Assembly (NCBI RefSeq): GCF_900169785.1 | Contig: NZ_FWER01000001.1 | Coordinates: forward strand, 1,765 to 65,764 | Reading direction: 5' to 3' | Length of the DNA: 64,000 bases | Source: Rhizobium sullae | GTDB lineage: Bacteria; Pseudomonadota; Alphaproteobacteria; Rhizobiales; Rhizobiaceae | Shown: one piece after another, positions 37,725-57,513 of the stretch | Layout: the number at the start of each line of letters is the position of its first letter | Position numbering within the stretch: position 1 is the first letter of the stretch | The notes under the pieces: model-generated | What the model saw: only the letters and a program-made list of their open reading frames with translations | What the model was told of the DNA's origin: nothing | The model's database searches: none | Position numbers and translations under genes: made by a program

Positions 37725-38923
37725 AACCCAGATCGAGACGACGTTTCCGCTGGCGTCTTTGGTTCGCCGTTGTGGCGGCATTGCTGATCGTGGCCTATTT
37801 CGCAGTCCGTCACTGGACGAAAGGAGCGCCGCTTCCGAGCACGACGACCATCCGGCGTGGCGACATAGAAAGCTCGGTTCTTGCTACCGGAACCTTGAGA
37901 CCGAAAAGCCTCGTCGCCATCGGCGCGCAGGCGACAGGCCGGATCCTGTCACTCAACGTGAAGCCAGGACATCAGGTTAAGGCTGGTGATGTCATTGCAC
38001 TCATCGACTCGACCAACCAGCAGAATAAGCTCAACAAGGCCCAGGCGACCTTGCTGCAAAATCAGGCTACTCGCGATCAGTGTATCGCGGATCTGGAACT
38101 GGCGCGGCAAGACCTTGCCCGCTATCAAATGATGATCGACAAGAACGCTGTCGCCAGATCCGAGTATGACAAGGCTGTCGCCACGCTGAAGGCGAAGGAA
38201 GCGCAGCTTGCCAACAGTGAAGCGGCCATCGCTGCTTCCAAAATTGATGTGCAAATTGCCGAGACCGACCTCGGCTATACGCGTATCACCGCTCCCATCG
38301 ACGGGACCATTCTCGCCACGGTGGTCCAGGAAGGCCAGACCGTCAATGCGGAACAAAGCGCGCCGACGATCGCAATTCTGGGTCAGGTGGACATGATGAC
38401 CGTCGAGGCGGCTATCTCCGAAGCGGACATTACGCAGGTGCACGAAGGCCTGCCGCTTTATTTCACCATTCCCGGTCAGAATTCAACGCGTTACGAAGCG
38501 ACGCTGGAAAAGATCGAGCCCGCGCCGGGCTCCATCGTCAACGATAAGAGCTTCAGTTCGAGCCGCGGCAGCAGCAGCGCATCTTCATCGAACGGGGAGA
38601 CGGCTTCGGCTATTTACTACAAGGGCATATTCAGCGTGCCAAACCCGGGCGGGCTGCTGAGAACCTATATGACGACTGAAATTCACATTCTGCTTGCCCA
38701 GGCTAGGAATGTGCTTCTGGCTCCTGTGTCGGCACAGCGGATATCGGATGATCCAAACAAGGCGACCGTTCGCGTTGTTACGAGTAGCGGCACTATCGAA
38801 GAGCGAACCGTTGAGACTGGCATCACAGACAAGATCAATGTGGAAATTCGTTCGGGCTTGAAGGAAGGCGACAAGATTGTCACCGACAATCATACACCCG
38901 TTCCAACCCCTGCCGGAACGTGA
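37721..38923 (+). CDS. macA: MacA-like periplasmic adaptor
   Basis: This HlyD/RND-type membrane-fusion protein (400 residues) has an N-terminal anchor helix (FRWRLWFAVVAALLIVAYFAV), a lipoyl domain (LVAIGAQATGRILSLNVKPGHQVKAGDVIALID), a coiled-coil hairpin (about residues 95-180), and a beta-barrel domain. A serine-rich insert (SFSSSRGSSSASSSNG, about residue 275) is typical of MacA-like adaptors. It overlaps the upstream gene by 4 bp and ends 2 bp before macB. It links the MacB-like ATPase/permease to the outer-membrane channel. Confidence 0.92.
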   Translation: MKPRSRRRFRWRLWFAVVAALLIVAYFAVRHWTKGAPLPSTTTIRRGDIESSVLATGTLRPKSLVAIGAQATGRILSLNVKPGHQVKAGDVIALIDSTNQQNKLNKAQATLLQNQATRDQCIADLELARQDLARYQMMIDKNAVARSEYDKAVATLKAKEAQLANSEAAIAASKIDVQIAETDLGYTRITAPIDGTILATVVQEGQTVNAEQSAPTIAILGQVDMMTVEAAISEADITQVHEGLPLYFTIPGQNSTRYEATLEKIEPAPGSIVNDKSFSSSRGSSSASSSNGETASAIYYKGIFSVPNPGGLLRTYMTTEIHILLAQARNVLLAPVSAQRISDDPNKATVRVVTSSGTIEERTVETGITDKINVEIRSGLKEGDKIVTDNHTPVPTPAGT

Positions 38924-38925
38924 CA

Positions 38926-40881
38926 ATGAGCGAAGCGCCCCTGATATCGCTCAAAGGCGTCACCCGACGATATCCGTCGGGTGACGCCGTGACCACAGTC
39001 CTGCATCATATCGACCTCACCATTCATCGCGGAGAGATGGTGGCCATTATCGGCGCTTCCGGGTCGGGCAAGTCTACGCTGATGAACATTCTCGGATGTC
39101 TGGACCGACCTTCCGAGGGAGAATATCAGATCTCGGGACGACCGACCTCGGAGCTTGAGGCCGATGAACTGGCGGAACTGCGGCGTGAACATTTCGGCTT
39201 CATTTTCCAGCGCTATCATCTGCTGAACGAACTCGACGCCGTCGGCAACGTCGAAATCCCGGCGATCTATGCCGGACGAAGCCGCGACGAGCGGCGCGAA
39301 AAGGCCGAAGCAATTCTGCACCGCCTTGGGATGGGAGAGCGCACGCATCATCGACCAAACCAGCTTTCAGGCGGTCAGCAGCAGCGTGTTTCCATTGCGC
39401 GCGCGCTGATCAATGACGCCGATGTCATACTTGCCGACGAACCGACCGGCGCACTGGACAGCCATAGCGGGGAAGAGGTCCTCGGGATACTTCAGCAACT
39501 GAACCGCGATGGCCGGACGATCATCATCGTTACCCATGACCGCTATGTGGCGACGCGCGCGCAGCGGATTATAGAGATCAGAGATGGTGAAATTATCGCT
39601 GATATGCGGAACGACGCTGCCGCAGATGCGCGCGCAAGCAATGATCTCCCGATAGATAGAAAGCCAGAAAAGCCTAAATTGTTCAACGGAATGCGGGATC
39701 GCTTCAACGAAGCCTTTGCAATGGCGTTGCGATCCTTGAATGCGCATCGTATGCGGACATTCCTCACCATGCTGGGTGTCATCATCGGGACGGCGTCGGT
39801 GGTCTGCGTGGTAGCACTCGGCCAGGGTTCGCAGAAACAGATTCTCGATCAGATCAGCGATCTCGGCACCAACTCACTCGATATCCGTCCCGGCCGCAGT
39901 TTCGGCGACCTGAAGGCCGCACAGATTACCACGCTGACGGTGGGCGATGCGAACGAACTCGCCAAACTGCCCTATGTGGTAGCAGCTACGCCCATGAGTT
40001 CATCGCCATCGACGGTACGGGTTGGCGACAAGGAAGTCAGCGTAATAGTGAGCGGGGTCGGTTATCAGCATTTTGTCACGCGCAACAGCAAACTGCTGGA
40101 GGGGCGCTTCTTCGACGAGAAGAGCGTCGACGATCTGGCGCAGGATGCGGTTATTGATGCGAATGCGAAGAAGACCCTTTTCCCACACGAATACGGTTCG
40201 GTCATTGGGAAGATCGTGCTTCTGAAAGACATGCCCGTGCGCATCATCGGCGTCGTCAAGGAAATGGGAGAAGCACAAAATCTGGAAGTGCTCCTGCCAT
40301 ATACGACGGTGCAAACGCGGATGACAGGTTCGCGCTCACTGCAATCCATCGTGGTGCGTGTCAACGATACGATGGACGCCGCCGAAGCGGAGAAGATGGT
40401 AACGACGTTTCTAACAAAACGTCATGGCGAGCAAGACTTCGTCATCTTCAATATCGCCAGTTGGCAGAATAGCATTCAAGTGACGACGGAAACCCTTGCT
40501 CTGCTGATCGCCTGCATTGCCGGCATATCTCTGTTCGTCGGCGGTATCGGCGTTATGAATATCATGCTCGTCGCGGTCTCGGAAAGAACCAACGAGATCG
40601 GCGTGCGCATGGCGATCGGCGCACGCCAGAGCGATATCCTGCAGCAATTCCTTATCGAAGCCGTTCTGGTCTGCCTGATAGGTGGCCTGCTCGGCCTTTT
40701 CATCGCCGCCGTGTTCGGGGTGCTGTTCGCGCAATTCAACACCATGTTTCCTCTTATCTACTCGTCGGCTTCCATTGTCCTGGCGCTGGTGTGTTCGAGC
40801 CTGATCGGAATCGGGTTCGGCTTTATCCCCGCCCGCAACGCCTCTAAACTCGATCCTGTTGTGGCGCTGGCACGTGATTAG
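38926..40881 (+). CDS. macB: MacB-like ABC transporter, ATPase-permease fusion
   Basis: The 651-residue protein has an N-terminal NBD (Walker A GASGSGKS, signature LSGGQQQR, Walker B VILADEPTGALD, H-loop VTHDRYVA) followed by a MacB permease domain: one helix (MRTFLTMLGVIIGTASVVCVVALG), a large periplasmic domain, and three helices from about residue 520. This is the mechanotransmission type of efflux pump that expels substrates such as macrolides, siderophores or peptides from the periplasm through TolC. ATG 38926 is preferred over GTG 38920. A strong 14-bp hairpin lies in the codons just after the start. Confidence 0.94.
   Translation: MSEAPLISLKGVTRRYPSGDAVTTVLHHIDLTIHRGEMVAIIGASGSGKSTLMNILGCLDRPSEGEYQISGRPTSELEADELAELRREHFGFIFQRYHLLNELDAVGNVEIPAIYAGRSRDERREKAEAILHRLGMGERTHHRPNQLSGGQQQRVSIARALINDADVILADEPTGALDSHSGEEVLGILQQLNRDGRTIIIVTHDRYVATRAQRIIEIRDGEIIADMRNDAAADARASNDLPIDRKPEKPKLFNGMRDRFNEAFAMALRSLNAHRMRTFLTMLGVIIGTASVVCVVALGQGSQKQILDQISDLGTNSLDIRPGRSFGDLKAAQITTLTVGDANELAKLPYVVAATPMSSSPSTVRVGDKEVSVIVSGVGYQHFVTRNSKLLEGRFFDEKSVDDLAQDAVIDANAKKTLFPHEYGSVIGKIVLLKDMPVRIIGVVKEMGEAQNLEVLLPYTTVQTRMTGSRSLQSIVVRVNDTMDAAEAEKMVTTFLTKRHGEQDFVIFNIASWQNSIQVTTETLALLIACIAGISLFVGGIGVMNIMLVAVSERTNEIGVRMAIGARQSDILQQFLIEAVLVCLIGGLLGLFIAAVFGVLFAQFNTMFPLIYSSASIVLALVCSSLIGIGFGFIPARNASKLDPVVALARD
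38956..38988 (+). repeat. Perfect 14-bp inverted repeat inside the macB 5' coding region
   Basis: GGCGTCACCCGACG (38956-38969) and CGTCGGGTGACGCC (38975-38988) are perfect complements around the 5-base loop ATATC. They begin 30 bases into macB. In mRNA this would form a very stable stem-loop close to the ribosome start, which could slow translation or mark an RNA-level control. Confidence 0.85.
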
Positions 40882-41115
40882 GCGGCGGTTCCTGTAGATG
40901 ACCGGGATGGTCATCGCTCTGGTGCATGTCTTCGAGTCTCTCGTCGTGATCGCGGTCTGGGCCTCGCTTCACGATAGTCCTCTCCGCTGCTTGGGGGAGT
41001 GGTTGAACTTGCTTCGCTGAGTGCCTTGCGCCGTAAGCCCGGAGCGGTCCCGGTGTGGAGGATGACGGGCAAGGGCGGCGAAGTCGGCGCAACGGACAGG
41101 ACGCTATCCAGCATT
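40882..41115. other. Intergenic, no gene recognised
   Basis: The stretch lies between macB and the GNAT gene. I see no domain in any frame. A minus-strand frame starting MLDSVLSVAP has a proline- and arginine-rich composition and no homology that I recognise. Confidence 0.35.
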
Positions 41116-41168
41116 GACTTCGGCTGGAGAACAACTCCTGCTTGAAGCCAAGGTGATTCTGGATCGTC
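41116..41168 (+). pseudogene. LysR internal fragment, copy 3
   Basis: The 53 bases are about 90% identical to 32336-32388 of the intact LysR gene (coding for SAGERLLLEAKVILDR). The fragment ends directly before the GNAT start. It is a further relic of the same regulator. Confidence 0.75.
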
Positions 41169-41169
41169 T

Positions 41170-41730
41170 ATGAACTTGTTCTCGAACCGTCAAATACCCG
41201 CAACGATCCGCGTTGCCTTACCGTCCGATGCCACGGCTATAGCCACGGTGCATGTAGCGTCGTGGAAAGAAACGTATGATGGCCTCATGCCTGAGGCGAT
41301 ACTCGCCGGCCTCTCCGTCACCGAACGTACACTAAGATGGCAGAAAATCCTTGATCAAGCCGAGCCCACTCTCGGAACAACATTTGTGGCCGAGCATGAT
41401 GGATCGATCGTCGGATTTGCACACGGCGCGGACCAACGGTCACCATCCCTGCGGGATCTTGGCTTTACCGGTGAGATCACCGGCATTTACATGCTGAAAT
41501 CCTTCCAACAACAGGGAATTGGCACCGCCCTGATGAGAGCAACGGCTGAAATGCTACAAGCTCGCCGTCACCGCGCAGCGAGTTTATGGGTGCTGCGCGA
41601 AAATGCGGTGGCGCGCAGGTTTTATGAGAGGCTCGGCGGAGAATTAGTCAGCGAGAAAGAAGATCGCAGAGACACGATGACACTGGTCGAGGTCGCGTAT
41701 GGTTGGCGCGATCTAAGCCCACTTTTATAG
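41170..41730 (+). CDS. GNAT-family N-acetyltransferase
   Basis: The 186-residue acetyltransferase shows the GNAT fold: N-terminal TIRVALPSDATAIATVHVASW, motif A ITGIYMLKSFQQQGIGTALMRAT with the Q-x-x-G-x-G/A pyrophosphate loop, and motif B LWVLRENAVARRFYERLGG. The substrate is unknown. It lies immediately after a LysR relic and converges with the second GNAT gene, which overlaps its 3' end. Acetyltransferases near peptide-antibiotic clusters sometimes give self-protection, but nothing here proves such a link. Confidence 0.88.
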   Translation: MNLFSNRQIPATIRVALPSDATAIATVHVASWKETYDGLMPEAILAGLSVTERTLRWQKILDQAEPTLGTTFVAEHDGSIVGFAHGADQRSPSLRDLGFTGEITGIYMLKSFQQQGIGTALMRATAEMLQARRHRAASLWVLRENAVARRFYERLGGELVSEKEDRRDTMTLVEVAYGWRDLSPLL

Positions 41731-42265
41731 GAGGTCTTTCTGTTTCGCATACTGGAATAGATTTAATGCTATCGAGACCTCCTCCGAGCCCATTCTTTGG
41801 ACCGCTGGAGGCTGGAGTTTTCTGGCTTCTCTTGGAAAGCCCGATCTTTTCGAGATGGGAACCGTCATCCAGTCGGCCGCGAAGCCTGTAATCGACAGTG
41901 AAGCCCCGGCGCTGATAGAGCGGCAGTCCGGTGTGCCTAGTCGTCGTCACGAGCCTCACGTCCAGAAGGTCATTTATGGCCGCCAGCTTCTCGGCTGTGT
42001 CAAGCAGGCGGTCTCCGATCCCGCGCCCCCTATGATCTGCGTCCACCCAGAGCTTTTCGATATGCATCCATCCGAACCGGCAGGACGTGACGCAGCCGCC
42101 AAGGCGCTCGTCATGATCGTTGCTTCGGGCCACGAAAATATGTTGCGCGGCCACAACTGGGCCGAACGCTGTAGCTTGATCGAACTCCGACAGGCGCTGC
42201 GATATCCAGACATAATCCTTCATGTCTTCGCGCAGGATGGCGTAGCCCTCGACACTAAATTCCAT
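41648..42265 (-). CDS. GNAT-family acetyltransferase, extended C-terminus
   Basis: From ATG 42265 the product begins MEFSVEGYAILREDMKDYVW and contains IEKLWVDADHRGRGIGDRLLDTAEKLA, a clear acetyl-CoA binding motif (RGRGIG), and LPLYQRRGFTV. The conserved part ends near residue 145. The frame then runs on for about 60 residues of unusual composition (PASSGPKNGLGGG) antisense to the end of the convergent GNAT gene, so the original stop may have been lost by deletion. Another start at 42289 is possible. It overlaps the XRE gene by about 11 bp. Confidence 0.7.
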   Translation of the reverse strand: MEFSVEGYAILREDMKDYVWISQRLSEFDQATAFGPVVAAQHIFVARSNDHDERLGGCVTSCRFGWMHIEKLWVDADHRGRGIGDRLLDTAEKLAAINDLLDVRLVTTTRHTGLPLYQRRGFTVDYRLRGRLDDGSHLEKIGLSKRSQKTPASSGPKNGLGGGLDSIKSIPVCETERPPIKVGLDRANHTRPRPVSSCLCDLLSR

Positions 42266-42494
42266 CGGAATTTCGGGTCTCGACGTCATCGTCCGGCACA
42301 TATTCGAGGATGTCGCCGGGCTGGCAGGACAGGTGCTTGCAGATCGCGTCCAGCGTCGAGAAACGCATCGCACGAACGCGACCGGATCTCAGGAGGGAGA
42401 TATTGCTTTCCGTGATGCCTACGGCTTCCGCAAGATCCTTTGACCGGACCTTTCGCTGCGCCAGCATCACATCAAGTCGAACGACAATTGCCAT
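42255..42494 (-). CDS. XRE-family helix-turn-helix regulator (YozG-like)
   Basis: The 79-residue Cro/CI-type protein reads MAIVVRLDVMLAQRKVRSKDLAEAVGITESNISLLRSGRVRAMRFSTLDAICKHLSCQPGDILEY, a complete five-helix HTH. Such small regulators are regularly found directly after DUF2975 membrane proteins, as here (4-bp gap). It could act on the similar promoters at 43043-43080 and 47684-47720, although this has not been shown. Confidence 0.88.
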   Translation of the reverse strand: MAIVVRLDVMLAQRKVRSKDLAEAVGITESNISLLRSGRVRAMRFSTLDAICKHLSCQPGDILEYVPDDDVETRNSDGI

Positions 42495-42498
42495 ACCA

Positions 42499-43014
42499 TC
42501 AAACCGTGAGTGACTGCTCTTCTTCCAGCTTGCGTGCCTCTTCCATAACCCAGGCGATCACGACCACGACGAATCCGACACCCAGGGCCACGGCTGCGCC
42601 GGAGCTGAACGAGATGCTGATGGTGCGCTCACCCGGAGAGCCGAATCCTGCTGAGGCCAGCGACGAAAGCGGAAAATAGGCCAACTGCGTGAGGCCGAAC
42701 AACAGGAGCGCCGATCCGAATTTACCGATCCGCGCGACGTTCTCCCTTCCGAACATCTCGCCTTCGCCGAAAAGGGCGAACAGGCGCCGAAGATGAACGA
42801 GCCCCAGCACGAGCGGCCCGCCCGCGAGAAGAACGACAGCGAGTTGAAGGAAATGGGGGCTAAGGTTGCCCCTGTTCGCCGGCGGCAGCGTCAAGTACCA
42901 ATGCGCGACGATCAGGATGGGAACGATGCAGGCCAGCACCCCCCAGAGCGTGGAGAAGAGGCGCCCCACCCGTCGGATTCTCCAGAGATTGTCGTCTGTC
43001 TTCAAGGCGCTCAT
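42499..43014 (-). CDS. DUF2975 membrane protein
   Basis: The 171-residue protein has four hydrophobic segments (LWGVLACIVPILIVAHWYL; FLQLAVVLLAGGPLVLGLVHL; FGSALLLFGLTQLAYFPL; VALGVGFVVVVIAWVM) and the FALFGEGEMFGRENVARIGKFG loop that is diagnostic for DUF2975. The family accompanies small XRE regulators and probably senses or transmits an unknown membrane signal. It follows the RiPP pump genes by about 190 bp on the same strand and has its own probable promoter. A role in immunity or regulation is inference from context. Confidence 0.85.
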   Translation of the reverse strand: MSALKTDDNLWRIRRVGRLFSTLWGVLACIVPILIVAHWYLTLPPANRGNLSPHFLQLAVVLLAGGPLVLGLVHLRRLFALFGEGEMFGRENVARIGKFGSALLLFGLTQLAYFPLSSLASAGFGSPGERTISISFSSGAAVALGVGFVVVVIAWVMEEARKLEEEQSLTV

Positions 43015-43042
43015 GACAAGTCCTTCAGGTGCTCATTTGCTT

Positions 43043-43080
43043 GTTGTAGGTCAGCAATTTATTGTTGGCAAACAGATAAC
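43043..43080 (-). promoter_or_regulatory. Probable sigma-70 promoter of the DUF2975-XRE unit
   Basis: On the minus strand, TTGCCA (43066-43071) and TACAAC (43043-43048) are separated by 17 bp. The region 43051-43080 is similar over 30 bases (about 22 identical) to 47691-47720 in front of the pump permease gene, including the identical runs TCAGCAATTT and CAAACAGA. The shared sequence may be an operator as well as a promoter. Confidence 0.45.
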
Positions 43081-43204
43081 CTTGCGTGAGACTGGTGCCG
43101 AATGCGCGTCTTCCCAGAGTGCCGCTATGGTATCTTTCCCTGTCCAATCGGCGGCGCACGGTCCCCTACGGTCGAGATCGTCTGCGATCTCTGGGACGAA
43201 GCGA

Positions 43205-43867
43205 TCAGTGAAGGATGCGACCGTCTTTCATCGAGACCATCCGATATGCCCGGCTGGCCTGTCGATCGTCATGGGTTACCATGATGACCGTTTTTCCGGT
43301 CGCGGCGATATTCTCCAGCATGTCCAGGACCTGCTCGCCATTTCCGCTGTCGAGGTTCCCGGTGGGCTCGTCAGCTAGAACGATGGCGGGATCGCCAACG
43401 AGAGCCCTCGCGATCGCTGCCCGTTGCTGCTGGCCGCCCGAGAGCTGCGCCGGATAGTGGCGGGCGCGGGCGTCGAGCCCTACCGCTTTCAGGACGCTCA
43501 TACTGCGATCACGGCGTTCGGCCCTGGCGATACCGCGATATTTCAATCCCAACTCCACATTCCGCTCGACGCTGAGATGGGGGATGAGGTTGAATGCCTG
43601 GAAAACGAAGCCAATATGCTTTCGGCGTAGATCGGTCAGCAAGCGATCGTTGCCGTCACTGATGTCGATGTCGGCGAACTGCATGATCCCCTCGCTTGGC
43701 GCGTCCAACAATCCCATAATGCTTAGCAAGGTTGACTTTCCCGAGCCGGAGGGTCCCATGATAGAGAGAAATTCGCCCCTTCCGACATCGAGATTAATAT
43801 CGGCCAGCGCCCGTGTTTCGAGATCTTCGGTGCGGTAGGTTTTTCCGACTTTTCTCAGCTTGATCAT
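43205..43867 (-). CDS. RiPP pump ATPase (DarD/MacB/LolD-like)
   Basis: The 220-residue stand-alone NBD has Walker A GPSGSGKS, signature LSGGQQQR, Walker B IVLADEPTGNLD and H-loop VTHDDRQA, with the LolD/MacB-type Q-loop FVFQAFNLIPHLSVERNV. It begins 11 bp after the membrane-fusion gene and is the third component of a split MacAB-type pump with the 800-residue permease. In darobactin clusters the equivalent protein is DarD. It should drive export of the modified peptide. Confidence 0.92.
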   Translation of the reverse strand: MIKLRKVGKTYRTEDLETRALADINLDVGRGEFLSIMGPSGSGKSTLLSIMGLLDAPSEGIMQFADIDISDGNDRLLTDLRRKHIGFVFQAFNLIPHLSVERNVELGLKYRGIARAERRDRSMSVLKAVGLDARARHYPAQLSGGQQQRAAIARALVGDPAIVLADEPTGNLDSGNGEQVLDMLENIAATGKTVIMVTHDDRQASRAYRMVSMKDGRILH

Positions 43868-43878
43868 GTTGGTGGTTC

Positions 43879-45192
43879 CTAGTTGATAGAGAGGCTTTGG
43901 TAGTCCCCAAAGCCTTGGTAGCTTGAGGTGATGACGCGATCGCCTTCCTTCAGACCGCCGACGATTTCGACGCTTTCGACCGTCCGACGACCGACCTGAA
44001 TATTCCTGCGCTCGGCGGTCGAGCCGTTGACGACGAAGATCCAGTTGCCCCCTGTCGTTTCCCAGAAGGCCCCGAGAGGAATCGTCAGGACGTCGGTTTC
44101 CCGCTGCGCCAGATCAAGCCGGCCGGTGATCGCCTGCCCCCTAGTGACGTTCGACATCGGAACCGATGGGTCAAACTCCGCCTCAATCTTGAATTTTCCA
44201 TCGGTGATCCGGGGCGAAATGCTCGCCACGGAAAGCGTGACGGCCACGCCATCTACAGTACCGGAAGCGTGCTGCCCAACACGGACTCGGCCGAGGTAGA
44301 ATTCGTCAAGCATGGCCTCAACCTTGAAGCCCTCGTTGTCGTCGATCTGCCCGATCGATTGCCCTGTCGCGAGATGCCGGCCAAGGCTCACGTCGAGATG
44401 GGTGAGATAGCCAGTGATCGGCGCCCGTATCACGAGCGCATCGAGCTGAGACCGGGCGGCGGCGATGGTTTCCTGAAGCCGGCTGGAGGTCTCACTGACC
44501 GAACGTTCGATGCTTTCGGCCTGAGAATTTACTCGATCTAGGGTGCGGCGCCGTATCTCAAAGATCGACTTCCAGTAGGCCAGATCCTCATTGAGGCGCT
44601 GTTCCTCGGCCGCAGGACCAACCCCGCGCACCACGAGCCGCGACTGCATGGTGTGCTGACGCTGTAGCTGCTCGACGCGATACCGCGCCTCTTCGAGGGC
44701 CGCTTCCGCGCCGGTCATCGTCTGCGAAACATTCAGCCGGAGCGCCATCTGACTGTTGAGATGATCGATGGCGCTGGATTCCTGCGTAGCGATCGACAGT
44801 TCCAGGTTGGGATTGGAGATCCTGACCAGGGGCGCTCCCGCCGCAACATGATCTCCGGCCCGATGGAAGATCTCTTCAACCCGGCCATCCTGTACCATGT
44901 CCAGAAAGACCGTTTCCTGCGGAAGGATACGGCCCCTCAGTGGGATGAACTCAGTAAATGCGCCTTTCGTGGCGGTCGCGATCGTCAGGCCCTCGGTCGG
45001 GACTGAGAGCGTGAAAGCGGTTCGGGCGGATATGATGTAGAGCGCCACTAGCGCGGCAGCCAGGAGTGCGATCCCCGTCGCGAGCGCATAGGGCCACACC
45101 CGCCGTCGGCTGATGGGACGATCAGTCGCGAGCAGGACAACCTTGCTCGGATCGCCTTCCAAAAACTGATCGTGCGAGAATGAATGACGCAT
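43879..45192 (-). CDS. RiPP pump membrane-fusion protein (DarC/HlyD-like)
   Basis: The 437-residue periplasmic adaptor has a cytoplasmic N-terminus of about 32 residues, one anchor helix (VWPYALATGIALLAAALVALYII), a split lipoyl domain (GRILPQETVFLDMVQDGRVEEIFHRAGDHVAAGAPLVRI and APITGYLTHLDVSLGRHLATGQ), a coiled-coil hairpin at about 140-260, and a beta-barrel domain. It begins 9 bp after the permease. Family members connect the inner-membrane permease to TolC; no outer-membrane gene lies in this operon, but the NodT-type channel at 36195 is close. Confidence 0.9.
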   Translation of the reverse strand: MRHSFSHDQFLEGDPSKVVLLATDRPISRRRVWPYALATGIALLAAALVALYIISARTAFTLSVPTEGLTIATATKGAFTEFIPLRGRILPQETVFLDMVQDGRVEEIFHRAGDHVAAGAPLVRISNPNLELSIATQESSAIDHLNSQMALRLNVSQTMTGAEAALEEARYRVEQLQRQHTMQSRLVVRGVGPAAEEQRLNEDLAYWKSIFEIRRRTLDRVNSQAESIERSVSETSSRLQETIAAARSQLDALVIRAPITGYLTHLDVSLGRHLATGQSIGQIDDNEGFKVEAMLDEFYLGRVRVGQHASGTVDGVAVTLSVASISPRITDGKFKIEAEFDPSVPMSNVTRGQAITGRLDLAQRETDVLTIPLGAFWETTGGNWIFVVNGSTAERRNIQVGRRTVESVEIVGGLKEGDRVITSSYQGFGDYQSLSIN

Positions 45193-45201
45193 CGCGCGGC
45201 C

Positions 45202-47604
45202 TTATGTCCGTAGAACCGCTGCCGGCTCGGTTCGAGCCAACTGGATCGTGTGCTGCAAGACAGCCAGCATTCCGACTGCCACCATGCCGACGGCGGTCGC
45301 CAGAAACGGATAAGGGCTCAGGGCGATGCGGTGGCTGTAACCACTGAGCCAGTACACCGCGATGAAAGCCGATGCGGGAAGACCGAGCAGAACCCCAGCA
45401 AGGATCGGCATGAAGAACCGCATTGAGACATAGGTTGTGACATTGCCGCGCGTGGCGCCCAACGCCCGCCGAATACCGATCTCCCGGCGCTGCCGTACAG
45501 ACAGAAGAGAGGTGAGCGCATAGATGCCGAGGCATGACGTGACGATCGCGACGATGCTAAGTGCGACGAGAACGCGTCTGGACTGCTCAAGGGGCCGATA
45601 GAGGTCAGCAAGCCTGTCGTCGAGAAAGCGCCCATTCATTGCCCTCTCGTTGGTCACTTCCAGCCAGACTGAATTGATCTGGTCGATCACCGCCGGGTCC
45701 CTTGGATTGTCGATCGCAATCGATACGAACCGGCCGCGCTCGGCCACCGGGAAGTAGACAATGGGCTCGGGCGGCAGATCGACGGATTTCATGGTGATAT
45801 CGGGCACCACGCCCAGGACCTCGAACGGAACCGGCCCTTGGGGTCCAATCATGGCGATCGACGTGCCGATCGCGGATCGAGCGTCGCGGAAGCCCAGAAC
45901 GGGAAGCGCCGCTTCGCTGAGAACTGTGACCTGTCCTCCTGCCTGCGCGGCATCGGTATCGGGGAAGAGCCTGCCGGCAACAGGGGCGAGGCCATAGGTG
46001 TCGAAGAACGCCGAATCGACCGCGTTGGACGGGAAACCGCTCGGCGCTGCCTGGCCCAACTCCTGGTTCATCAGGCCGACCATCGAAGTCGTGAAGTTTG
46101 TCGGAACGATCTGCGAGACGGATGCGGCCCGTACCCCTGGTATTCTGGACGCCTCATCCCGGAATGTCGCAAGCACGGAAGGCGACAACGCCGCGGTGCC
46201 GCTCTCGATGATGTACACGCCGGTTCCGATCGCTTGAAGGCTCTTGCGGACAGCGAAAGTCGTCTGCCCCGCGACAATGAAAGAGAGAACCACGATTACC
46301 GTCGAAAGACCGAACTGCACGACGATAGGAATCGACTCCCAGGCCGCCTTCCGCTTTGGCATCTCCTGTTTGAGGGCGACGACCGGCGGCATGCGCGCGA
46401 CCGCACCCGCTGGCAGCATCGTGGCGGCGGTGGCGCCCAGGGCCACGATGACAGGCGGTGCAAGGAGGAACAGGAGATCCGGCGCGGTCACCAGAATTGT
46501 GACGCCCAGCACGGCCGAGATTATCGGATGGGCAGCCAGAATGAGCGAGGCTGCAAGCGTCATCGACGCAACTGTTATGGCCGCGCCCTCACGCAGGTTC
46601 CCGAGCATGATCTGAAGCCGCGTTGCTCCGAACGACCGGCGAACGCCGTATTCGAGTGTCCGAGCCTCGGCCCTCGAAATCATCAGCACCGAGAAGTTGA
46701 TGCAGACGATGACAACAATCATCGTAGCGATGGCAACCAGAACGCCGATCATCGTCCGGCTTCCCCCCGGCTTCAGCTCGCCAGACGGGAAATTGTTCAG
46801 GTGGATCTCCGTGACGGGCATCATCCCAAGGACCGGATTCACCACGGACGCCTGTTCTGGCGGCATGATAGGCGTCGTCACAAGCAGATTGGAGAGCTGC
46901 ACCGCTACCTCTTTCGCCGCGATGCCGTCATCCAGCCAGAAATAGGTGTACGCGATGCTCTCGCCAGGGCCTGCGGATTGGAACTGCCGGTTCAGAATGG
47001 TGAAAGGCGATGCACTGCTAACAAGCAGATTGAGATTGAGATGGGTGTTCTCTGGCACCGATCGCAACACGCCTGTCACCTGGAGGCTGTCGCCCGTGTC
47101 AAGCTCAAGCGTCTGGCCGATCGGGTTGGCCGTGCCGAAGTATTTCTGCGCAGCCTGCTGCGAAAGCACAGCGTTACCCGGTGCCTGAAGTGCGTGTGCG
47201 AGGCTCCCCGCGCGCAACTCCAGACCGAACGCCTCCAGGAAATTCTCGTCTACGACCTGCACGGTTTCGGAAAACCTTTCCCCGTTTCGCGAGATGACCA
47301 TGTTCTCTCGCGAAAGGCGGGTGACCGCTTCAACGCCCGGCAAACCCTTCAGCGAATCGGCCAGCCGGGGGCTGATGGCGGGCAGAGATATCTTTCCCGC
47401 GCCGGGCGGCGAGATCGTTACGAAGAGCCGATACGCTTGGCCGCTGTTGCGAACCCAACTGTCGTAAGAGAGATCGGTCCTGACAATCAGGATGCACAGT
47501 CCGACGGCCACAAACGCAACCGTCGTGCCAATGAAATTGACGATGATCGGGACGAAATCCTTTGCCGTCCTTATGCCGAAGAATTCCCGGAATCGATGCT
47601 GCAT
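45202..47604 (-). CDS. RiPP pump permease (DarB-like, duplicated FtsX/MacB domain)
   Basis: This 800-residue permease contains two FtsX/MacB_PCD units. The first has helix NFIGTTVAFVAVGLCILIV, a periplasmic domain, and helices from about residue 285 around GVRRSFGATRLQIMLGNL. The second has helix IVVQFGLSTVIVVLSFIVAG, another periplasmic domain, and helices from about 680 around GIRRALGATRGNVTTYVSM. Each GxRR.FGA/ALGAT motif is the cytoplasmic coupling helix. The length and duplication match DarB. A promoter-like and terminator-like pair precedes it, so its expression may be separate from the precursor. Confidence 0.9.
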   Translation of the reverse strand: MQHRFREFFGIRTAKDFVPIIVNFIGTTVAFVAVGLCILIVRTDLSYDSWVRNSGQAYRLFVTISPPGAGKISLPAISPRLADSLKGLPGVEAVTRLSRENMVISRNGERFSETVQVVDENFLEAFGLELRAGSLAHALQAPGNAVLSQQAAQKYFGTANPIGQTLELDTGDSLQVTGVLRSVPENTHLNLNLLVSSASPFTILNRQFQSAGPGESIAYTYFWLDDGIAAKEVAVQLSNLLVTTPIMPPEQASVVNPVLGMMPVTEIHLNNFPSGELKPGGSRTMIGVLVAIATMIVVIVCINFSVLMISRAEARTLEYGVRRSFGATRLQIMLGNLREGAAITVASMTLAASLILAAHPIISAVLGVTILVTAPDLLFLLAPPVIVALGATAATMLPAGAVARMPPVVALKQEMPKRKAAWESIPIVVQFGLSTVIVVLSFIVAGQTTFAVRKSLQAIGTGVYIIESGTAALSPSVLATFRDEASRIPGVRAASVSQIVPTNFTTSMVGLMNQELGQAAPSGFPSNAVDSAFFDTYGLAPVAGRLFPDTDAAQAGGQVTVLSEAALPVLGFRDARSAIGTSIAMIGPQGPVPFEVLGVVPDITMKSVDLPPEPIVYFPVAERGRFVSIAIDNPRDPAVIDQINSVWLEVTNERAMNGRFLDDRLADLYRPLEQSRRVLVALSIVAIVTSCLGIYALTSLLSVRQRREIGIRRALGATRGNVTTYVSMRFFMPILAGVLLGLPASAFIAVYWLSGYSHRIALSPYPFLATAVGMVAVGMLAVLQHTIQLARTEPAAVLRT

Positions 47605-47683
47605 CCCAACCTCGCAGTCTCATGCTGCGCCGAAGAGTCCCTGGGCGCGGGCTGAACTCACCTCGGCAAACGTTCATAAGATA

Positions 47684-47713
47684 GTATTATTCAGCAATTT
47701 CTTTCTGTCAAAC
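47684..47713 (-). promoter_or_regulatory. Probable sigma-70 promoter of the pump genes
   Basis: On the minus strand, TTGACA (47708-47713) is followed by a 16- to 18-bp spacer and AATAATAC (47684-47691). It lies about 80 bp upstream of the permease ATG and directly after the hairpin that follows the precursor gene, so the pump could be transcribed independently of the maturase and precursor. Confidence 0.55.
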
Positions 47714-47720
47714 AGAAACT

Positions 47721-47751
47721 CTCCTCGGGTTGGCCGCGCCCGAGGAGAGCT
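47721..47751 (-). terminator. Strong hairpin between precursor and pump genes
   Basis: CTCTCCTCGGG and CCCGAGGAGAG are perfect 11-bp arms with a 9-base loop, about 55 bp after the precursor stop. On the minus strand it is followed by TTTCTGTTTG. As in many RiPP operons, a partial terminator here would allow much more precursor than transporter mRNA. Confidence 0.65.
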
Positions 47752-47805
47752 GAATCGCGTGGTTCACGTGAAGATGCCTATGAATTTGGCCGCCCGTCGG
47801 CGGGA

Positions 47806-48048
47806 TCAGATTTGGTATTTCCAGATGTTGAAGATCCACATTGTCGGCGCGGTGCCGTCACGGAAGGCTTCATCGAACTGCGCATCGACCATATCGGGCT
47901 CGAGCTTCGTCGGCTCGATGGGCAGGCGGTCCAGCGCGGTTTGAAGCATCCGCGAGACCAGCTCCTGCTGACGAGGCGAAAGGCTCTTGCTGTGGTCGCG
48001 AACGCGCTTCGCCATATCCTGGCGCGCGTCAAGAAGTGCAGCGTCCAT
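47806..48048 (-). CDS. Candidate RiPP precursor peptide, 80 residues
   Basis: From ATG 48048, placed behind AAAAGGAGAGACAGC (a very strong ribosome site), the product has 80 residues. The first 70 are a charged helical leader (DARQDMAKRVRDHSKSLSPRQ, then MLQTALDRLPIEPTKLEP, ending DGTAPTM). The last ten, WIFNIWKYQI, are strongly aromatic and unlike the leader. A longer frame reaches 48150, but only the shorter form has a ribosome site. It lies 89 bp after the radical SAM gene and before a MacAB-like pump. DarA of darobactin ends with core WNWSKSF and tail QEI, so WIFNIWKY followed by QI is a plausible core plus tail. Which residues are crosslinked is not predictable. Confidence 0.8.
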   Translation of the reverse strand: MDAALLDARQDMAKRVRDHSKSLSPRQQELVSRMLQTALDRLPIEPTKLEPDMVDAQFDEAFRDGTAPTMWIFNIWKYQI

Positions 48049-48137
48049 GCTGTCTCTCCTTTTCTGGGCGGGGTTCCATAGATCGCGGAACGTGTCGTCG
48101 GACGCCCAGAATCCGGCGGCTCCGCGATTCAAATGAG

Positions 48138-49559
48138 CTAAGGCAGGCAAATGGTGCCGCGCGCAGTGTCCTTTTCCATGAGGGACAGCAGCGGCCCAAG
48201 CCCGCAGCAGCCGGACGTGTCGTTCAGGAGCCTGCGCGAGGTTTTACGATCGTGCGGACAACCGCCCGTGCAGACCGAGTACCATTGGCATTGCGAGGAT
48301 CCTGTCTTGTAGCCGTCCAGTTCGGCCTTCGCTCGCTTGAGATTTTGCGATCCCGCCAACGACCGGTTCAAACTGCCTTTGAAGATGTTGCCGTAAAGAT
48401 AGTTGTCATCGCCGACATATTTGTCGCAAGCGGCAATATTGCCATTGCTTTCGATCGTCAGATATTTGCCCTGGCAATCACCGGCGAAAATGCACAGACC
48501 ATGTTCCCTGTTGGCGACTTTGTTCAACAGTGAGATGAAGGTGCGTATCTCAAGCCTGTCCTGATACTCATCCCGCCAGACTTCATAGAGGCGGCACATG
48601 AATTTCACGTATTCAGGCCAGGGGATATAGGTGCCGATAACATTGCAAGATTCGTCGTTCTCCGGCAGGGCATTTAGGATGTCGAGGGATCTGGCGCCGG
48701 TCAGGACAAAGTAGTCCAGGAGCTCTCGCGGCGGCATGGCGGCGACCTCGGAATCGATCACGGCAAGCAAGCCATGCTTGATGCCGTTCTGCCGGAGCTG
48801 TCGCAGCGTAGCAAGTATACGCTGTGAGGTGCCGGCCCCGTTCACATCGACCCGGCGCGTATCATTGATAGCGGGAGGACCGTCAATGCTCACACCGATA
48901 GAAATGCTGTAGTCCCGAAGGAACTTCAGCATGTCATCCGAGATGTCCACGGCATTGGTCTGGATCGCATTCGAGAAACTGACACCCTTGGACGTATATC
49001 GCTGTTGAAGCCACAGGGCCTTGCGATAGAACTTGACGCCCAGAAGGGTGGCTTCCCCACCATGCCAGACGAACTCAATATGCCGCGCGCCGGGCGCCTG
49101 CAGCGCGTCCCGTATCGTGCGGGCCAGGACGGCGAACGACATCACATGGCCCGGCCCCTCTCGCCAGGCGTGGCAATAGGTGCAGCGCAGGTTGCACAGC
49201 CGGGTCGCCTTCATGACGATGATCATGCTCGACGACTGCGCTGGCGTCTTATCCACCGGGATTTGTTCGATCTGGCGGAGCATGGCGCGCTCGCGCCTGT
49301 TCAGAACCGCTTCCTCGGGCAGGCTCAAGCGCTGGTGAAGCGTAGGCTTTGGATCGGCGAAGAGCAGGCTTCCGAAGATCGATTTCTCGTCATCGTTCAG
49401 CGTGTCCATGAAGCTCTTCAGGCCCGCGCGCAGCGCCACGACATCATCGCGGCTGGTGATAGTGAGGCCGGTAGGCTCGACACCATTGGCCGGGCTTGCG
49501 TCGCTTGCCCCTTTCTGAAGCTGCGAGTCCAGGCGCACAGCGCTTACCCTCCGAGACAT
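48138..49559 (-). CDS. Radical SAM/SPASM peptide maturase
   Basis: The 473-residue enzyme has the [4Fe-4S]-SAM motif CNLRCTYC (C122, C126, C129), then VWHGGEATLLG, IQTNA and SIDGPPAINDTRR, characteristic of peptide-modifying SPASM enzymes (FxsB, XyeB, GrrM and DarE types). The C-terminal SPASM region has many cysteines (C356, C362, C378, C424, C430, C434, C451, C452) for two auxiliary clusters. An N-terminal extension of about 110 residues precedes the barrel. Known relatives form carbon-carbon or ether cyclophane links on aromatic residues of a precursor C-terminus; the neighbouring 80-residue peptide is the evident substrate. A LysR-type box lies about 50 bp upstream. Confidence 0.92.
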   Translation of the reverse strand: MSRRVSAVRLDSQLQKGASDASPANGVEPTGLTITSRDDVVALRAGLKSFMDTLNDDEKSIFGSLLFADPKPTLHQRLSLPEEAVLNRRERAMLRQIEQIPVDKTPAQSSSMIIVMKATRLCNLRCTYCHAWREGPGHVMSFAVLARTIRDALQAPGARHIEFVWHGGEATLLGVKFYRKALWLQQRYTSKGVSFSNAIQTNAVDISDDMLKFLRDYSISIGVSIDGPPAINDTRRVDVNGAGTSQRILATLRQLRQNGIKHGLLAVIDSEVAAMPPRELLDYFVLTGARSLDILNALPENDESCNVIGTYIPWPEYVKFMCRLYEVWRDEYQDRLEIRTFISLLNKVANREHGLCIFAGDCQGKYLTIESNGNIAACDKYVGDDNYLYGNIFKGSLNRSLAGSQNLKRAKAELDGYKTGSSQCQWYSVCTGGCPHDRKTSRRLLNDTSGCCGLGPLLSLMEKDTARGTICLP

Positions 49560-49593
49560 ATTGACTGTGCATATCCTATCTGCAACTTGGAGC

Positions 49594-49830
49594 GCATCAA
49601 GTTAGACACTATCTGGAATGCAGATAGGTGCGCCGTTTGCATGGATCAAATGGAAGTCAAATCTTGAGGAGGATCTTGGTCTCGATCTGGTCAACCGATC
49701 GGGGACGCAGGGTTCCACTCAAAAATCGTGTGCGCGAAGGATCACCCGCTGGCGAGCACTGATGTCGGCCGGAGGAACTTGAGCGCCATGGCAGATCATG
49801 GCTGCCCTTCGGAGCGGAGGGCGGGCTCAA
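49594..49830 (+). pseudogene. LysR relic with internal deletions, copy 4
   Basis: Three blocks match the intact LysR gene in order: the leader, box and ATGGATCAAATGGAA; then the region coding for NLEEDLGLALFSRSG; then the region coding for VPLKMVCSKDHPLAKADVGWEELKRHRQI. Large parts between them are deleted and frames are lost. It shows that the RiPP operon once had its own adjacent divergent LysR gene. Confidence 0.8.
49609..49627. promoter_or_regulatory. LysR-type box upstream of the radical SAM gene, copy 4
   Basis: CTATCTGGAATGCAGATAG is TATCT-N7-AGATA, the same inverted repeat found upstream of the intact LysR gene. It lies 50 bp upstream of the maturase start, in a position suited to activation of the RiPP operon by the island LysR protein. 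Confidence 0.6.
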
Positions 49831-49923
49831 ACGATCACCTCAAGGTATGCACCTTGCAGCGACACGCATTGCACTGAGCATCACGTGGAAGCGTTGACCG
49901 GCGCGTGGTCACTCCAGTGTCAG

Positions 49924-50214
49924 TCACGTTGTCTCCCAAGCTGCCACGACACCGATCCTCCTTGCACTGCACTGCGCCCGTGACGTCGCGGCAGAACTGG
50001 CGGTCAATGACAGGACGCCAGGGACAAGGGTGAACTCATGGCCTTTCTCGACGATGGCGAACTTGCCGCTCGATAGCTGGACCGTGCCGGTGAACTTGCC
50101 GCTTACGGTTTCACCCTCTGCGGTCCCCGAAACGGCATGGGGCTTGCTAGCCGCCAACTCCGTACCCGGCGCGGGCGACCTCGCGCTCGCGTAACCCAGC
50201 AAAATTGCCCGCAC
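49924..50214 (-). pseudogene. Relic of a DUF3363 relaxase (VirD2-like) C-terminus
   Basis: The minus-strand frame contains VSGTAEGETVSGKFTGTVQLSSGKFAIVEKGHEFTLVP, and after a one-base frame change WRPVIDRQFCRDVTGAV. This matches the C-terminal end of DUF3363 relaxases of rhizobial plasmids and ICEs (pattern G..Y...V.LASGRFA.IE....F.LVPWRPV...LG). The catalytic relaxase domain is absent. It marks the right part of the island as former mobilisable DNA. Confidence 0.65.
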
Positions 50215-50255
50215 ATGCGCAAATTTGGCTGAACGAGGATCCAGCTTAGCCGCAA

Positions 50256-50485
50256 GCGCTCAATCGGCCGCGATCTATCTATTCTGCAGATACTTCCTAA
50301 CTTGAACGCAGCACCAGAAGCGTAGAGAAAGCGCGCTCAACGGGTGAAAAAGGACGGCCTCAAGGTGTCAGAGATGCACCATTTTCCCGGTCACATGCGC
50401 CGGAACAATGTAAATACTGTCGCAGGTTTGAACGTTGATCTTCGTTTCACGCATACATCTGAATTCTCAGAAGATGTTCTGCTCT
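50256..50485 (+). repeat. Long direct repeat, right copy (with LysR-type box)
   Basis: This is the fuller copy of the repeat at 35852-36034 and contains the identical box CTATCTATTCTGCAGATAC at 50275-50293. Downstream it merges into the lasso B2-like frame. Same orientation and about 14.4 kb spacing from the left copy would allow excision or amplification of the DNA between by homologous recombination. Confidence 0.75.
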
Positions 50486-51024
50486 TTCCGCGCTTTCAGG
50501 GTGCCACGATGCGTGCGAGGCTATATTGCTTTAGGTCGACAAGGACCATAGTAAAGCTTGCGAAAGACCGTGCGAGTCGGATGGCAAATGCACCAGAAAC
50601 GTCGCTTGATGATATTGCCTGCTTGATTGTGGCATACAACCGCTTGAAAGCCCTCCGCCTATTCCCTCTAAGTTGCGTTCTGGACTCTTTGGCTTGTCTA
50701 TTCTTCTTCGCCGAAGAGGGATGTAGCGCAAATCTTGTGATTGGCGTGAAAGAAGCCCCCTTCGCGACTCGCACCTGGCTCGAAATAAATGGAGTGGTAG
50801 CGAATGACGACGATGCACTCGTCTTAAGCTACCTCCCGGTTCTGCAAACGAACAGCGAAAGCGATCGACATCAGGCTTTGGGAGGGACCGCTGCTGGCAC
50901 ATGCATTGGATCAAAGACCAAGGATGCTCCGGCCAAGCGACGGCTGAGGCATCATCCGCAAATTGGAGCGTTTTCAATCGGAGCGACCCAGGCGCTCATC
51001 TCGTCCTGGCGTCGATTTTCGTAG
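50344..51024 (+). pseudogene. Decayed lasso-peptide B2 (transglutaminase-like) gene
   Basis: The central part matches lasso-peptide B2 leader peptidases: LDDIACLIVAYNRLKALRLFPL, then SCVLDSLACLFFF with the catalytic Cys, LVIGVKEAPF, WLEINGVVAND and SYLPVL. In functional enzymes the sequence before W is usually AAHAW; here it is ATRTW, so the catalytic His is replaced by Arg. Beyond about residue 175 the frame runs into an inverted LysR fragment, so the true stop is lost. No precursor, B1 or cyclase gene remains. The start is uncertain. Confidence 0.6.
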
Positions 51025-51226
51025 TGGCAAGGCGCTTGCAAAGCCATTTTGCAGCCGCCCCGCAAGGCCGTTGCTTGTGCCAGATCATTCCCAATGCGAC
51101 CTGAAACTGACCGTCGCCAAACTGCAGCGAGGGCTAGTAAGGTCCGGCTCACATGGGGGGTATGCAATGACATGGTCGGGGGCAAAGGCTCAGCCGATCC
51201 CGTGCTTGACCAGGGTGGGTATACAA
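51000..51226 (-). pseudogene. Inverted LysR 3' fragment, copy 5
   Basis: Read on the minus strand, this aligns with about 32820-33030 of the intact LysR gene: GTCAAGCACGGGATCGGCTG (compare GTCAGGCAAGGGATCGGTTG), then CTGCAGTTTGGCGACGG, then GGCACAAGCAACGGCCTTGC and AAGCGCCT(T/C)GCC. Frames are broken. Its opposite orientation suggests inversion or a separate insertion event. Confidence 0.75.
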
Positions 51227-51227
51227 A

Positions 51228-51853
51228 TACGCGAGAAGAAGTTGATAGGTTGGCGAGTTCGCCGAAATGCTGCTCAGGCATGGTCTGGGCGGAAAGGTCG
51301 TCCAGATGGCAGCGGGCCGCGGCCGCGATGCCCTGATCGTCCTCGCCGGCGTATTCATCGATCCAAACGCGATAGAGGTGCCCATCGAGGACCCAGACGC
51401 CGTGCGGTGCCAGGGCACGGCCAAGTTCAGCATATCCGACGGCGCAAGGGGCGAGAGCGACATGCAGGTCGAGCAGATCGGCGGCCGCCCCGCAGTCCAG
51501 CACGAAACAGGTATAGGCGATGGTCGCCTGGTGCTCGGGCGCGGCCTCAATATCCTGCGGCGACGGGCCCCCTCGCCCGTGTAACCGCACATGGAGTTCG
51601 GTCGCGTCGAGGATGGCGGCAAGGGCCAGCTGCGCCGCGCGGATGTCGGCAACGGTGCGGCTCTTGTAGGCGGCGAGGGCATAGGCGCCGGCGAGCTGCC
51701 TGAGGAACTGGCGGTCCAGCACCAGATAGGCGCGGAAGGTCGCCGCGGGCAGCGTTCCCGCGCCGAGCCGGCGCACGAAAGGCTAGGCGCTGCACGACGT
51801 GGAACCGCACCCGTCCTTTGAGCCTGTTCGCAGTCGAAGAGCGCGGGCATTGG
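51228..51853 (-). pseudogene. Frameshifted TenA/thiaminase II-family gene
   Basis: The main frame reads VRRLGAGTLPAATFRAYLVLDRQFL and continues through AYALAAYKSRTVADIRAAQLALAAI, CAVGYAELGRALAPHG, DEYAGEDDQGIAAAARCHLDDL and MPEQHFGELANL, a recognisable TENA/THI-4 protein. The expected N-terminus (PALFD) is in another frame from about 51853, with a frameshift before PFVRRLG, and the C-terminus degenerates into the LysR fragment. TenA hydrolyses aminopyrimidines for thiamin salvage; this copy looks inactive. Confidence 0.65.
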
Positions 51854-51901
51854 CATCACGCGTCATTTGCAGGAAGATGCCTCCGGAAAGGATCGAGCAA
51901 T

Positions 51902-52792
51902 ATGAACCTGCGCTTCGTCGAAACGTTCCTCTGGATCGTCCGCCTCGGCAGTTTTAGTGCCGCTGCGGAGAAATTGAATACAACTCAGGCTTCGATTTCC
52001 AACCGCATCGCTACACTCGAGCGCGAGCTTGGTGTTCAGCTGTTTGATCGCGATATGCGCACTGTCAAACTTACACCGGTCGGGCAGCAAGCGGTCTCCA
52101 AAGCGGAAGAGATCGTGAAGGCGGTTGGAGAATTTCGCGAGACGATAGCCGATCCGACCAGCCTAAAAGGTTCAGTCAGTATCGGCACGATCGACTCCAT
52201 TGTTCACTCGTTTCTGCCACGCCTTGTCGAGCGGGTGCAGGAGCGCTATCCGGGGATCGCCATCGATCTCAATGTCGACACGAGCCTCAACATGGCGCGG
52301 GAAATCATTGAACGGAAAATCGACCTAGCGTTGATCATGGGCCCAGCGCTTGATCATGGATTGGTCAACATCAATCTTGGGACGTATGGCTGCGTCTGGG
52401 TGGCAAGCCCGAAATACGGCTTGGCAGGCAAAAAACTGACACTTGCGGACCTTGCAAGCTACCCATTGCTGGCCTTTTCAAAAGGAAGCGTTCCTCATCA
52501 TGGGCTGTTGCAGCAGTTTCGCGAAGCAGGGCTTGAGGTGCCGGCGATCTCGAATTCCAACTCGCTTGCCACCATCATGCGCCTTGCCAAAGATGGTCTT
52601 GGTGTCGCGCCTCTGCCGCGCGTCATCCTGGGCGAATATATTGACGCAGGTGCATTGGAGATTCTTGACGTTGCACCGGCATTTCATCCGCTTACCTTCC
52701 ATGCGGTCTATGCCGATCACCCGGACAGTCTTCTGCCGTCGATCATTGCCCAGATGGCAGCTGAAGTATCACTCTGCATGGCGGATGCCTGA
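51902..52792 (+). CDS. LysR-family regulator of the amidohydrolase/ABC operon
   Basis: The 296-residue protein starts MNLRFVETFLWIVRLGSFSAAAEKLNTTQASISNRIATLERELGVQLFDRD, a normal LysR HTH, followed by an effector domain (SVSIGTIDSIVHSFLPRLVERVQERYPGIAIDLNVDTS). The ATG at 51902 has GGAAAGGA upstream; the open frame reaches back to 51818. It is co-directional with and 126 bp from the nitrilase gene, and is the likely activator of that operon. It is unrelated at sequence level to the island LysR. Confidence 0.9.
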   Translation: MNLRFVETFLWIVRLGSFSAAAEKLNTTQASISNRIATLERELGVQLFDRDMRTVKLTPVGQQAVSKAEEIVKAVGEFRETIADPTSLKGSVSIGTIDSIVHSFLPRLVERVQERYPGIAIDLNVDTSLNMAREIIERKIDLALIMGPALDHGLVNINLGTYGCVWVASPKYGLAGKKLTLADLASYPLLAFSKGSVPHHGLLQQFREAGLEVPAISNSNSLATIMRLAKDGLGVAPLPRVILGEYIDAGALEILDVAPAFHPLTFHAVYADHPDSLLPSIIAQMAAEVSLCMADA

Positions 52793-52918
52793 GAGTCATT
52801 TCGATCGAATGCAACAGCCAGCCACGAATGCATAAGAAAATTCTATAGGACTGCTCAATTATTTCGAGTTTGTCTCACCACGATATTTTGCGCACGATCC
52901 CTTCACCGCAATGGAGGT

Positions 52919-53728: not shown

Positions 53729-53739
53729 GAGGTCAGCCC

Positions 53740-57509: not shown

Positions 57510-57513
57510 CGGT

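Follow-up and report, generated by a model that had tools for sequence, protein, structure and literature searches.

A probable darobactin/dynobactin-superfamily peptide cluster with its own MacAB-like pump in Rhizobium sullae

A seven-gene locus in Rhizobium sullae is strongly supported as a cluster for a crosslinked ribosomally synthesized and post-translationally modified peptide (RiPP) with its own split MacAB-like pump. It lies in a stretch of 64,000 nucleotides (assembly GCF_900169785.1, contig NZ_FWER01000001.1, positions 1,765 to 65,764 of the forward strand), which we call the window and in whose coordinates all positions are given. On the minus strand, reading from 49559 to 42255, lie genes for a radical S-adenosylmethionine (SAM)/SPASM maturase, a small precursor peptide, a permease, an adaptor, an ATPase, a DUF2975 protein and an XRE-type regulator, all in open frames (Table 1). 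An earlier reading of the sequence only had proposed both this gene order and a RiPP cluster with a dedicated pump; open frames and family matches confirm the order, and the cluster is strongly supported. We consider it likely an uncharacterized variant within the darobactin/dynobactin superfamily, the precursor family having already been named by NCBI. Members of this superfamily block BamA and so kill Gram-negative bacteria; to our knowledge few of their cores have been characterized. Our preferred reading, to which we give a probability of roughly one half, is that the C-terminal decapeptide WIFNIWKYQI is tied into two separate three-residue rings, W1–F3 and W6–Y8, and exported by the cluster's own pump, with BamA its presumed target.

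The precursor matches the NCBI family NF041299, 'DynW-associated RiPP peptide', at 110.6 bits (E = 4.6e-32), over the cut-off of 40. The same model finds a homologue in a second genome labelled as the same species (G1229; L123:14558-14800), which scores 121.4 bits. Where the window reads WIFNIWKYQI, the second strain reads WSFNIWNYRF, so that four of the 10 core residues differ, as against two of the 70 leader residues (Fisher p = 0.0017). All four changed core codons are nonsynonymous, and W1, F3, N4, I5, W6 and Y8 are unchanged; the precursor in its full length has 2 synonymous and 6 nonsynonymous codon changes, compared with 46 and 23 in the maturase.

A read-out of the family profile points to the same residues. 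Positions 70–79 (10 of the 80) were masked singly and rescored with NF041299 against the 110.6 bits of the intact peptide, with losses of 2.7 bits at M70, 8.7 at W71, 6.1 at F73, 2.2 at N74, 4.0 at I75, 8.6 at W76, 1.9 at K77, 4.2 at Y78 (where the alignment then stops early) and 0.3 at Q79, and a gain of 0.9 at I72. Most of the core score is thus carried by W71, F73, I75, W76 and Y78, and little by N74. Among 10 single exchanges scored on this model, T, V and N outscored I at position 72, and S fell slightly below N at 74; at 77, T came slightly above K and R below it, at 73 neither Y nor W reached F, and at 78 F scored less than Y. The family profile therefore appears to read roughly W-x-F-(N/S)-I-W-x-Y, that is, two W-x-aromatic triplets.

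By phylogeny and a cysteine signature the maturase is placed with the DarE superclade as a sister branch, but it misses the DarE, DarW and DynA cut-offs. It scores 426.6 bits on the DarW model (NF041300) and 386.9 on the DarE model (NF038005), each with a cut-off of 650, and 188.3 on the DynA model (cut-off 450); two DarE references reach 715 and 760 bits on the DarE model and 506–521 on the DarW model. The likeness to the NF041299/DarW system lies in the precursor, which passes its cut-off, and the difference in the maturase; among the literature matches listed, none deals with a RiPP under the names DynW or DarW. The cut-offs for the three-residue cyclophane maturases XyeB (63.6 of 450 bits), FxsB (109.1 of 370), GrrM (122.4 of 310) and YhhB (138 of 445) are missed as well. 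In a quick maximum-likelihood tree of 44 rows (the window's maturase, 30 of 120 listed homologues and 13 references), the window falls in a nine-row clade (support 100) that adjoins DarE and P0019 (support of 92 at the fork), and the sulfatase maturases fall outside; the tree carries no bootstrap, 11 of its 41 inner branches are open, YhhB and a sequence from genome G265 sit on very long branches, and the named outgroup did not form one side of a branch. The first Cys of a C-x2-C pair is missing in the window, in the second strain and in both DarE sequences compared, and present in both sulfatase maturases, while CCG stands near the C-terminus in the window, the second strain and both DarE sequences. 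All 115 of the 120 listed homologues with a readable motif lack that Cys, and all 115 have CCG. The enzyme thus groups with DarE and apart from the sulfatase maturases, and its assignment to a RiPP rather than a non-RiPP SPASM family, as first supposed, holds.

The predicted structure of the maturase (predicted local distance difference test score, pLDDT, 80.9; predicted template modelling score, pTM, 0.77; residues 1–33 under 50) has helices at residues 37–53, 56–67 and 88–99 ahead of the radical SAM part. Its closest solved structures are the anaerobic sulfatase-maturating enzyme (anSME), at the top, and ChlB, which was solved with its RiPP leader and is as close to the model as anSME. We rejected the idea that the N-terminal helices mimic the leader: on a profile of 120 N-termini the window precursor scored 9.0 bits (E = 0.16) against 8.0 for the best of 500 of its own shuffles, and of three darobactin precursors one gave no match and two fell below their best own shuffle. 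The second strain has ATA in place of the ATG at 49559; a start at 49538 (GTG in the window, ATG in the second strain) is common to both and lies behind GGAGGG. The PADLOC search returned weak viperin matches of the maturase, which a radical SAM enzyme would be expected to give, as well as two weak helix-turn-helix (HTH) matches of the XRE regulator.

Among NCBIfam models, the best for the adaptor is DarC (177.8 bits, cut-off 450) and the best for the ATP-binding cassette (ABC) ATPase is DarD (268.9 bits, cut-off 375), both cut-offs being missed; the adaptor passes the general model RND_mfp at 122.7 bits. The permease scores 223.1 bits on ADOP and 94.7 on DarB (cut-off 700), under the cut-off in both cases. 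Tight spacing, also claimed in the sequence-only reading, holds for the pump genes, which are 9 and 11 nt apart, and for DUF2975 and XRE (4 nt), but not elsewhere, the gaps being 89 nt between maturase and precursor, 201 nt between precursor and permease and 190 nt between ATPase and DUF2975.

The second genome carries the locus on a 4.1-Mb contig, and its DNA is collinear with the window at 96.4% across positions 42046–58464. Protein identity is 95.1% for the maturase, 94.6% for the permease, 94.5% for the adaptor and 95.9% for the ATPase; the XRE frame is kept, and DUF2975 is open over its first 136 codons until the locus ends. The precursor frame is thus conserved beside a homologous maturase, as the cluster hypothesis had it, in another genome of this species. 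Its family was found in these two of the 148 genus genomes, and no further genome appears in the other samples (1 of 61 relatives, 1 of 394 family and 1 of 398 phylum genomes; the samples overlap and each includes the window's own genome). The maturase model, at E ≤ 1e-60, finds 2 of 397 order and 2 of 385 class genomes, again counting its own; the other matches, in G265 and G486, score 250 and 241 bits versus 427, and the neighbours in G265 are of another kind. That genome, of the same order, has a different small radical SAM system (L071:1387-3170), in which a DarE/DarW-related enzyme (258 and 250 bits) is directly followed by a predicted P-loop ATPase-like frame. Nearer maturases come from Devosia sp. 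Leaf64 (60%) and from further, mostly metagenomic sequences, and there are permease relatives at 64–66% identity. A first maturase scan of genome contigs gave no relative, and no similar precursor frame was found near the related loci in Streptomyces (L004), Cupriavidus (L069) and G265 (L071). Plasmids yielded no near DNA match and no precursor match; viral contigs yielded 45 loci at ≤31% identity, save one at 42% over 50 residues.

From these features we propose the following scheme. Leader residues 1–70 would guide the maturase to the core, and because no protease match is found among the seven genes of the cluster, a protease encoded elsewhere in the genome would cut after M70. The W1–F3 link would likely be an ether, since DarE enzymes form that link on W-x-F, and W6–Y8 could be joined by an ether or a carbon–carbon bond. 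The DarBCD-like pump would then export the peptide through an outer-membrane channel supplied from elsewhere, and the product would inhibit competing Gram-negative bacteria through BamA, a target suggested by analogy. According to Guo et al. (PMC9055067), DarE enzymes make a W-x-W ether plus a W-x-K or W-x-R carbon–carbon link and, with WTFRF or a mutated DarA as substrate, a W-x-F ether (+14 Da); for the daropeptide cluster IV core WT(F/Y)RF the W–F ether was demonstrated by mass spectrometry (PMC9055067). These precedents favour W1–F3 and W6–Y8 here, and the preference of NF041299 for T, V or N between W and F, which parallels WT(F/Y)RF, counts in the same direction.

The comparison with darobactin is one of kind rather than of detail. 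Like the darABCDE cluster, the locus combines a DarBCD-like permease, adaptor and ATPase with a precursor and a DarE-type maturase, which has the DarE cysteine signature. The core, however, agrees with WNWxKxF in at best two of seven residues at any offset, the precursor has 80 residues instead of the 55–60 of the Vibrio and Photorhabdus precursors, the maturase gene comes first where in Vibrio darA-B-C-D-E it comes last, and the DarE, DarB, DarC and DarD cut-offs are all missed. 'Darobactin-like', as the cluster was originally labelled, therefore stands at the level of the superfamily and fails below it, the core pattern and the DarE score being off and the precursor belonging to a separate NCBI family. 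With daropeptide cluster IV the core shares a W-x-aromatic triplet, here W-x-F with the ether a prediction; as described in PMC9055067, cluster IV contains a single triplet, carries an N-acetyltransferase gene and lacks DarBCD, in contrast to two triplets and a pump here. In Photorhabdus asymbiotica two darobactin-type precursor frames, WNWTKRF and WNWSKSF, lie about 360 bp apart upstream of the DarE gene (L003:3332-3505 and 3869-4048). The dynobactin precursor model had no match in the P. asymbiotica or V. crassostreae genomes. Rhizobium sullae goes unmentioned in the matching literature listed, and Guo et al. nowhere use 'rhizobi' in their main text; Miller et al. 2022, on dynobactin, may already have listed this cluster.

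Several observations weigh against the W1–F3/W6–Y8 antibiotic proposed above. Core residues W1, N4 and Y8 agree with the dynobactin register, as do R9 and F10 in the second strain; N4, unchanged between strains, counts for a W1–N4 link. Apart from the precursor model, no dar model reaches its cut-off, the cluster shows no immunity gene, and in the upper rows of the maturase and permease match lists no contig was recognized as common to both except the window's own. The profile read-out comes from one curated model whose seeds were not seen, and the pattern of core and leader changes from one strain pair, in which the nucleotide divergence of the core (5 of 30) is unexceptional for the cluster (274 of 7474 windows, in 16 peaks).

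The first alternative, possible though clearly less probable, retains the same kind of cluster and places the rings in the dynobactin register, with a carbon–carbon W1–N4 link plus W6–Y8 in place of His6–Tyr8 and no oxygen insertion. Dynobactin is described as linked at W1–N4 and H6–Y8 in the portions of PMC13067283 and PMC11002830 consulted. Dynobactin A, WNSNVHSYRF, is likewise a C-terminal decapeptide, and the core register here seems nearer to it than to darobactin's; gapless identity is 3 of 10 for the window and 5 of 10 for the second strain (permutation p = 0.015 and 0.004), but with W1 held fixed the values become 0.061 and 0.016. The dynobactin precursor model aligns, weakly, at the extreme C-terminus of the second-strain peptide (14.1 bits, E = 0.043). 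The constancy of N4 supports this register; in the family profile, on the other hand, N74 is worth just the 2.2 bits given above and Ser is nearly its equal. Against it, too, the dynobactin models are missed (precursor 13.0 of 40 bits, and DynA as stated), His6 is replaced by Trp, and Phe occupies position 3. Both arrangements put a link within W6-x-Y8 and differ in the first ring. The calculated [M+H]+ of the free window core is 1410.757 for the linear peptide, 1438.715 for two ethers, 1422.720 for an ether plus a C-C link and 1406.726 for two oxygen-free links.

It is unlikely, in our estimation, that the peptide is made and exported yet serves not as a BamA antibiotic but as a signal, between cells or in association with a plant, under the XRE/DUF2975 pair. 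That the regulator pair lies within the cluster and that no immunity gene is recognizable there would suit such a role, as would the lack of an evident second BamA in the genome: a second copy as self-immunity was considered and rejected, for of two Omp85 matches one is BamA and the other, of 651 codons, is probably TamA-like, judging by its size. The best-characterized relatives by core and maturase are BamA antibiotics, however, and the concentration of amino-acid change at the unlinked core positions, seen in one strain pair, suits an arms race better than it does a fixed signal. A reading in which the maturase simply serves anaerobic sulfatases and the small frame is no precursor we judge refuted, since the TIGR03942 score of 228.8 bits lies below its cut-off of 349.45, the tree and the cysteine signature exclude a sulfatase maturase, the small frame belongs to a named RiPP family and recurs in the second strain, and the top structural rank of anSME is offset by an equally close ChlB.

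As for expression of the proposed two-ring peptide and its pump, two transcription units are likely, because the gap between precursor and permease holds a T-tailed hairpin and a promoter-like site. The hairpin folds with z = −3.25, none of 200 shuffles being as good, and its single altered stem pair in the second strain still pairs as G-U; our pattern scan omitted it, the scan's loop limit being 8 and the loop here 9. The promoter-like site has 10 of 12 matches, is the best of four sites found (shuffle average 2.6 sites) and is identical in the second strain. Just upstream of the maturase lies an inverted repeat that may be an operator for XRE or a leader hairpin; its outer pair is changed on both sides between the strains, from C-G to T-A, and its 9-nt word is not rare, the window having 21 matches at one mismatch or fewer versus 10.25 in shuffles. 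A middle copy, CTATCTG at 49609–49615, could pair with the left-hand arm in the transcript as a shorter alternative hairpin. An Rfam scan of 41000–52000 gave no match.

Table 1. Features of the cluster, in window coordinates.
Feature	Position	Strand	Basis or remark
DarE-type radical SAM/SPASM maturase	48138..49559	-	PF04055 Radical_SAM; SPASM below its own cut-off
Precursor peptide, 80 aa: leader 1-70, core 71-80	47806..48048	-	NF041299; AGGAG ahead of ATG
Core decapeptide WIFNIWKYQI, predicted mature product	47809..47838	-	Strain comparison and profile read-out; exact cut site predicted
12-pair hairpin, then TTTCTGTTT: likely terminator or attenuator	47718..47750	-	Between precursor and pump genes
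Promoter-like TTGACA-17-AATACT	47683..47711	-	Ahead of pump genes
Duplicated FtsX/MacB-type permease, DarB-like	45202..47604	-	MacB_PCD x2, FtsX x2
HlyD-type periplasmic adaptor, DarC-like	43879..45192	-	HlyD_3
ABC ATPase, DarD-like	43205..43867	-	ABC_tran
DUF2975 membrane protein, possibly in a regulator pair	42499..43014	-	PF11188, 48.9 bits
XRE-type regulator (HTH_26)	42255..42494	-	PF13443, 87.8 bits
10-nt perfect inverted repeat, candidate operator or leader hairpin	49575..49628	.	Upstream of maturase

The sequence-only reading had placed the cluster in a rhizobial island. Its surroundings are indeed accessory: among 100 genus genomes a stretch of the right flank finds, apart from itself, one long match, at 65%, and a direct repeat of 166–173 bp (88%) flanks the cluster at 35852–36017 and 50256–50428, the 7.9-Mb genome having no third copy. 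On the other hand, the 64-kb window has no tRNA gene, its composition is fairly even and, in the second strain, the cluster sits on a contig of 4.1 Mb. Further decayed repeats pair 32275–33041 with 49658–51212. A fragment at 49924–50214 (minus strand) matches DUF3363 at 42.5 bits, which we take to be a relaxase-associated family, and may be a mobile-element remnant beside the cluster.

To the left, an operon at 36195–40881 (plus strand) encodes an outer-membrane efflux protein, an HlyD adaptor and a MacB-type protein. It was considered as the missing part of the pump and rejected, as the second strain has the cluster without it; against the whole G1229 genome it gives matches of at most 128 bp at 71–89% identity. 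Two overlapping convergent GNAT acetyltransferase genes follow (41170–41730, plus strand; 41648–42373, minus strand), and the minus-strand one, beside XRE, was likewise rejected as a tailoring enzyme, its frame being shortened in the second strain. Because the one is missing and the other shortened there, we place both outside the cluster.

We tentatively suggest, with less confidence than in the ring assignment itself, that the locus represents a new branch of BamA antibiotics, in which a DarE-type enzyme that inserts oxygen would close two independent W-x-aromatic rings on a core compatible with the dynobactin register as well, and in which the unlinked core residues would be diversifying between strains of one species. 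If true, a single system, in a Rhizobium, would bring together the chemistry of darobactin and that of dynobactin. A maturase branch adjoining DarE that acts on a dynobactin-like core could show how the radical SAM scaffold picks ether over carbon–carbon or carbon–nitrogen links, or the reverse, and the two natural cores on a near-identical leader provide a ready-made substrate comparison. If active, the peptide would also suggest that peptides of this kind have a role in antagonism among soil and root bacteria.

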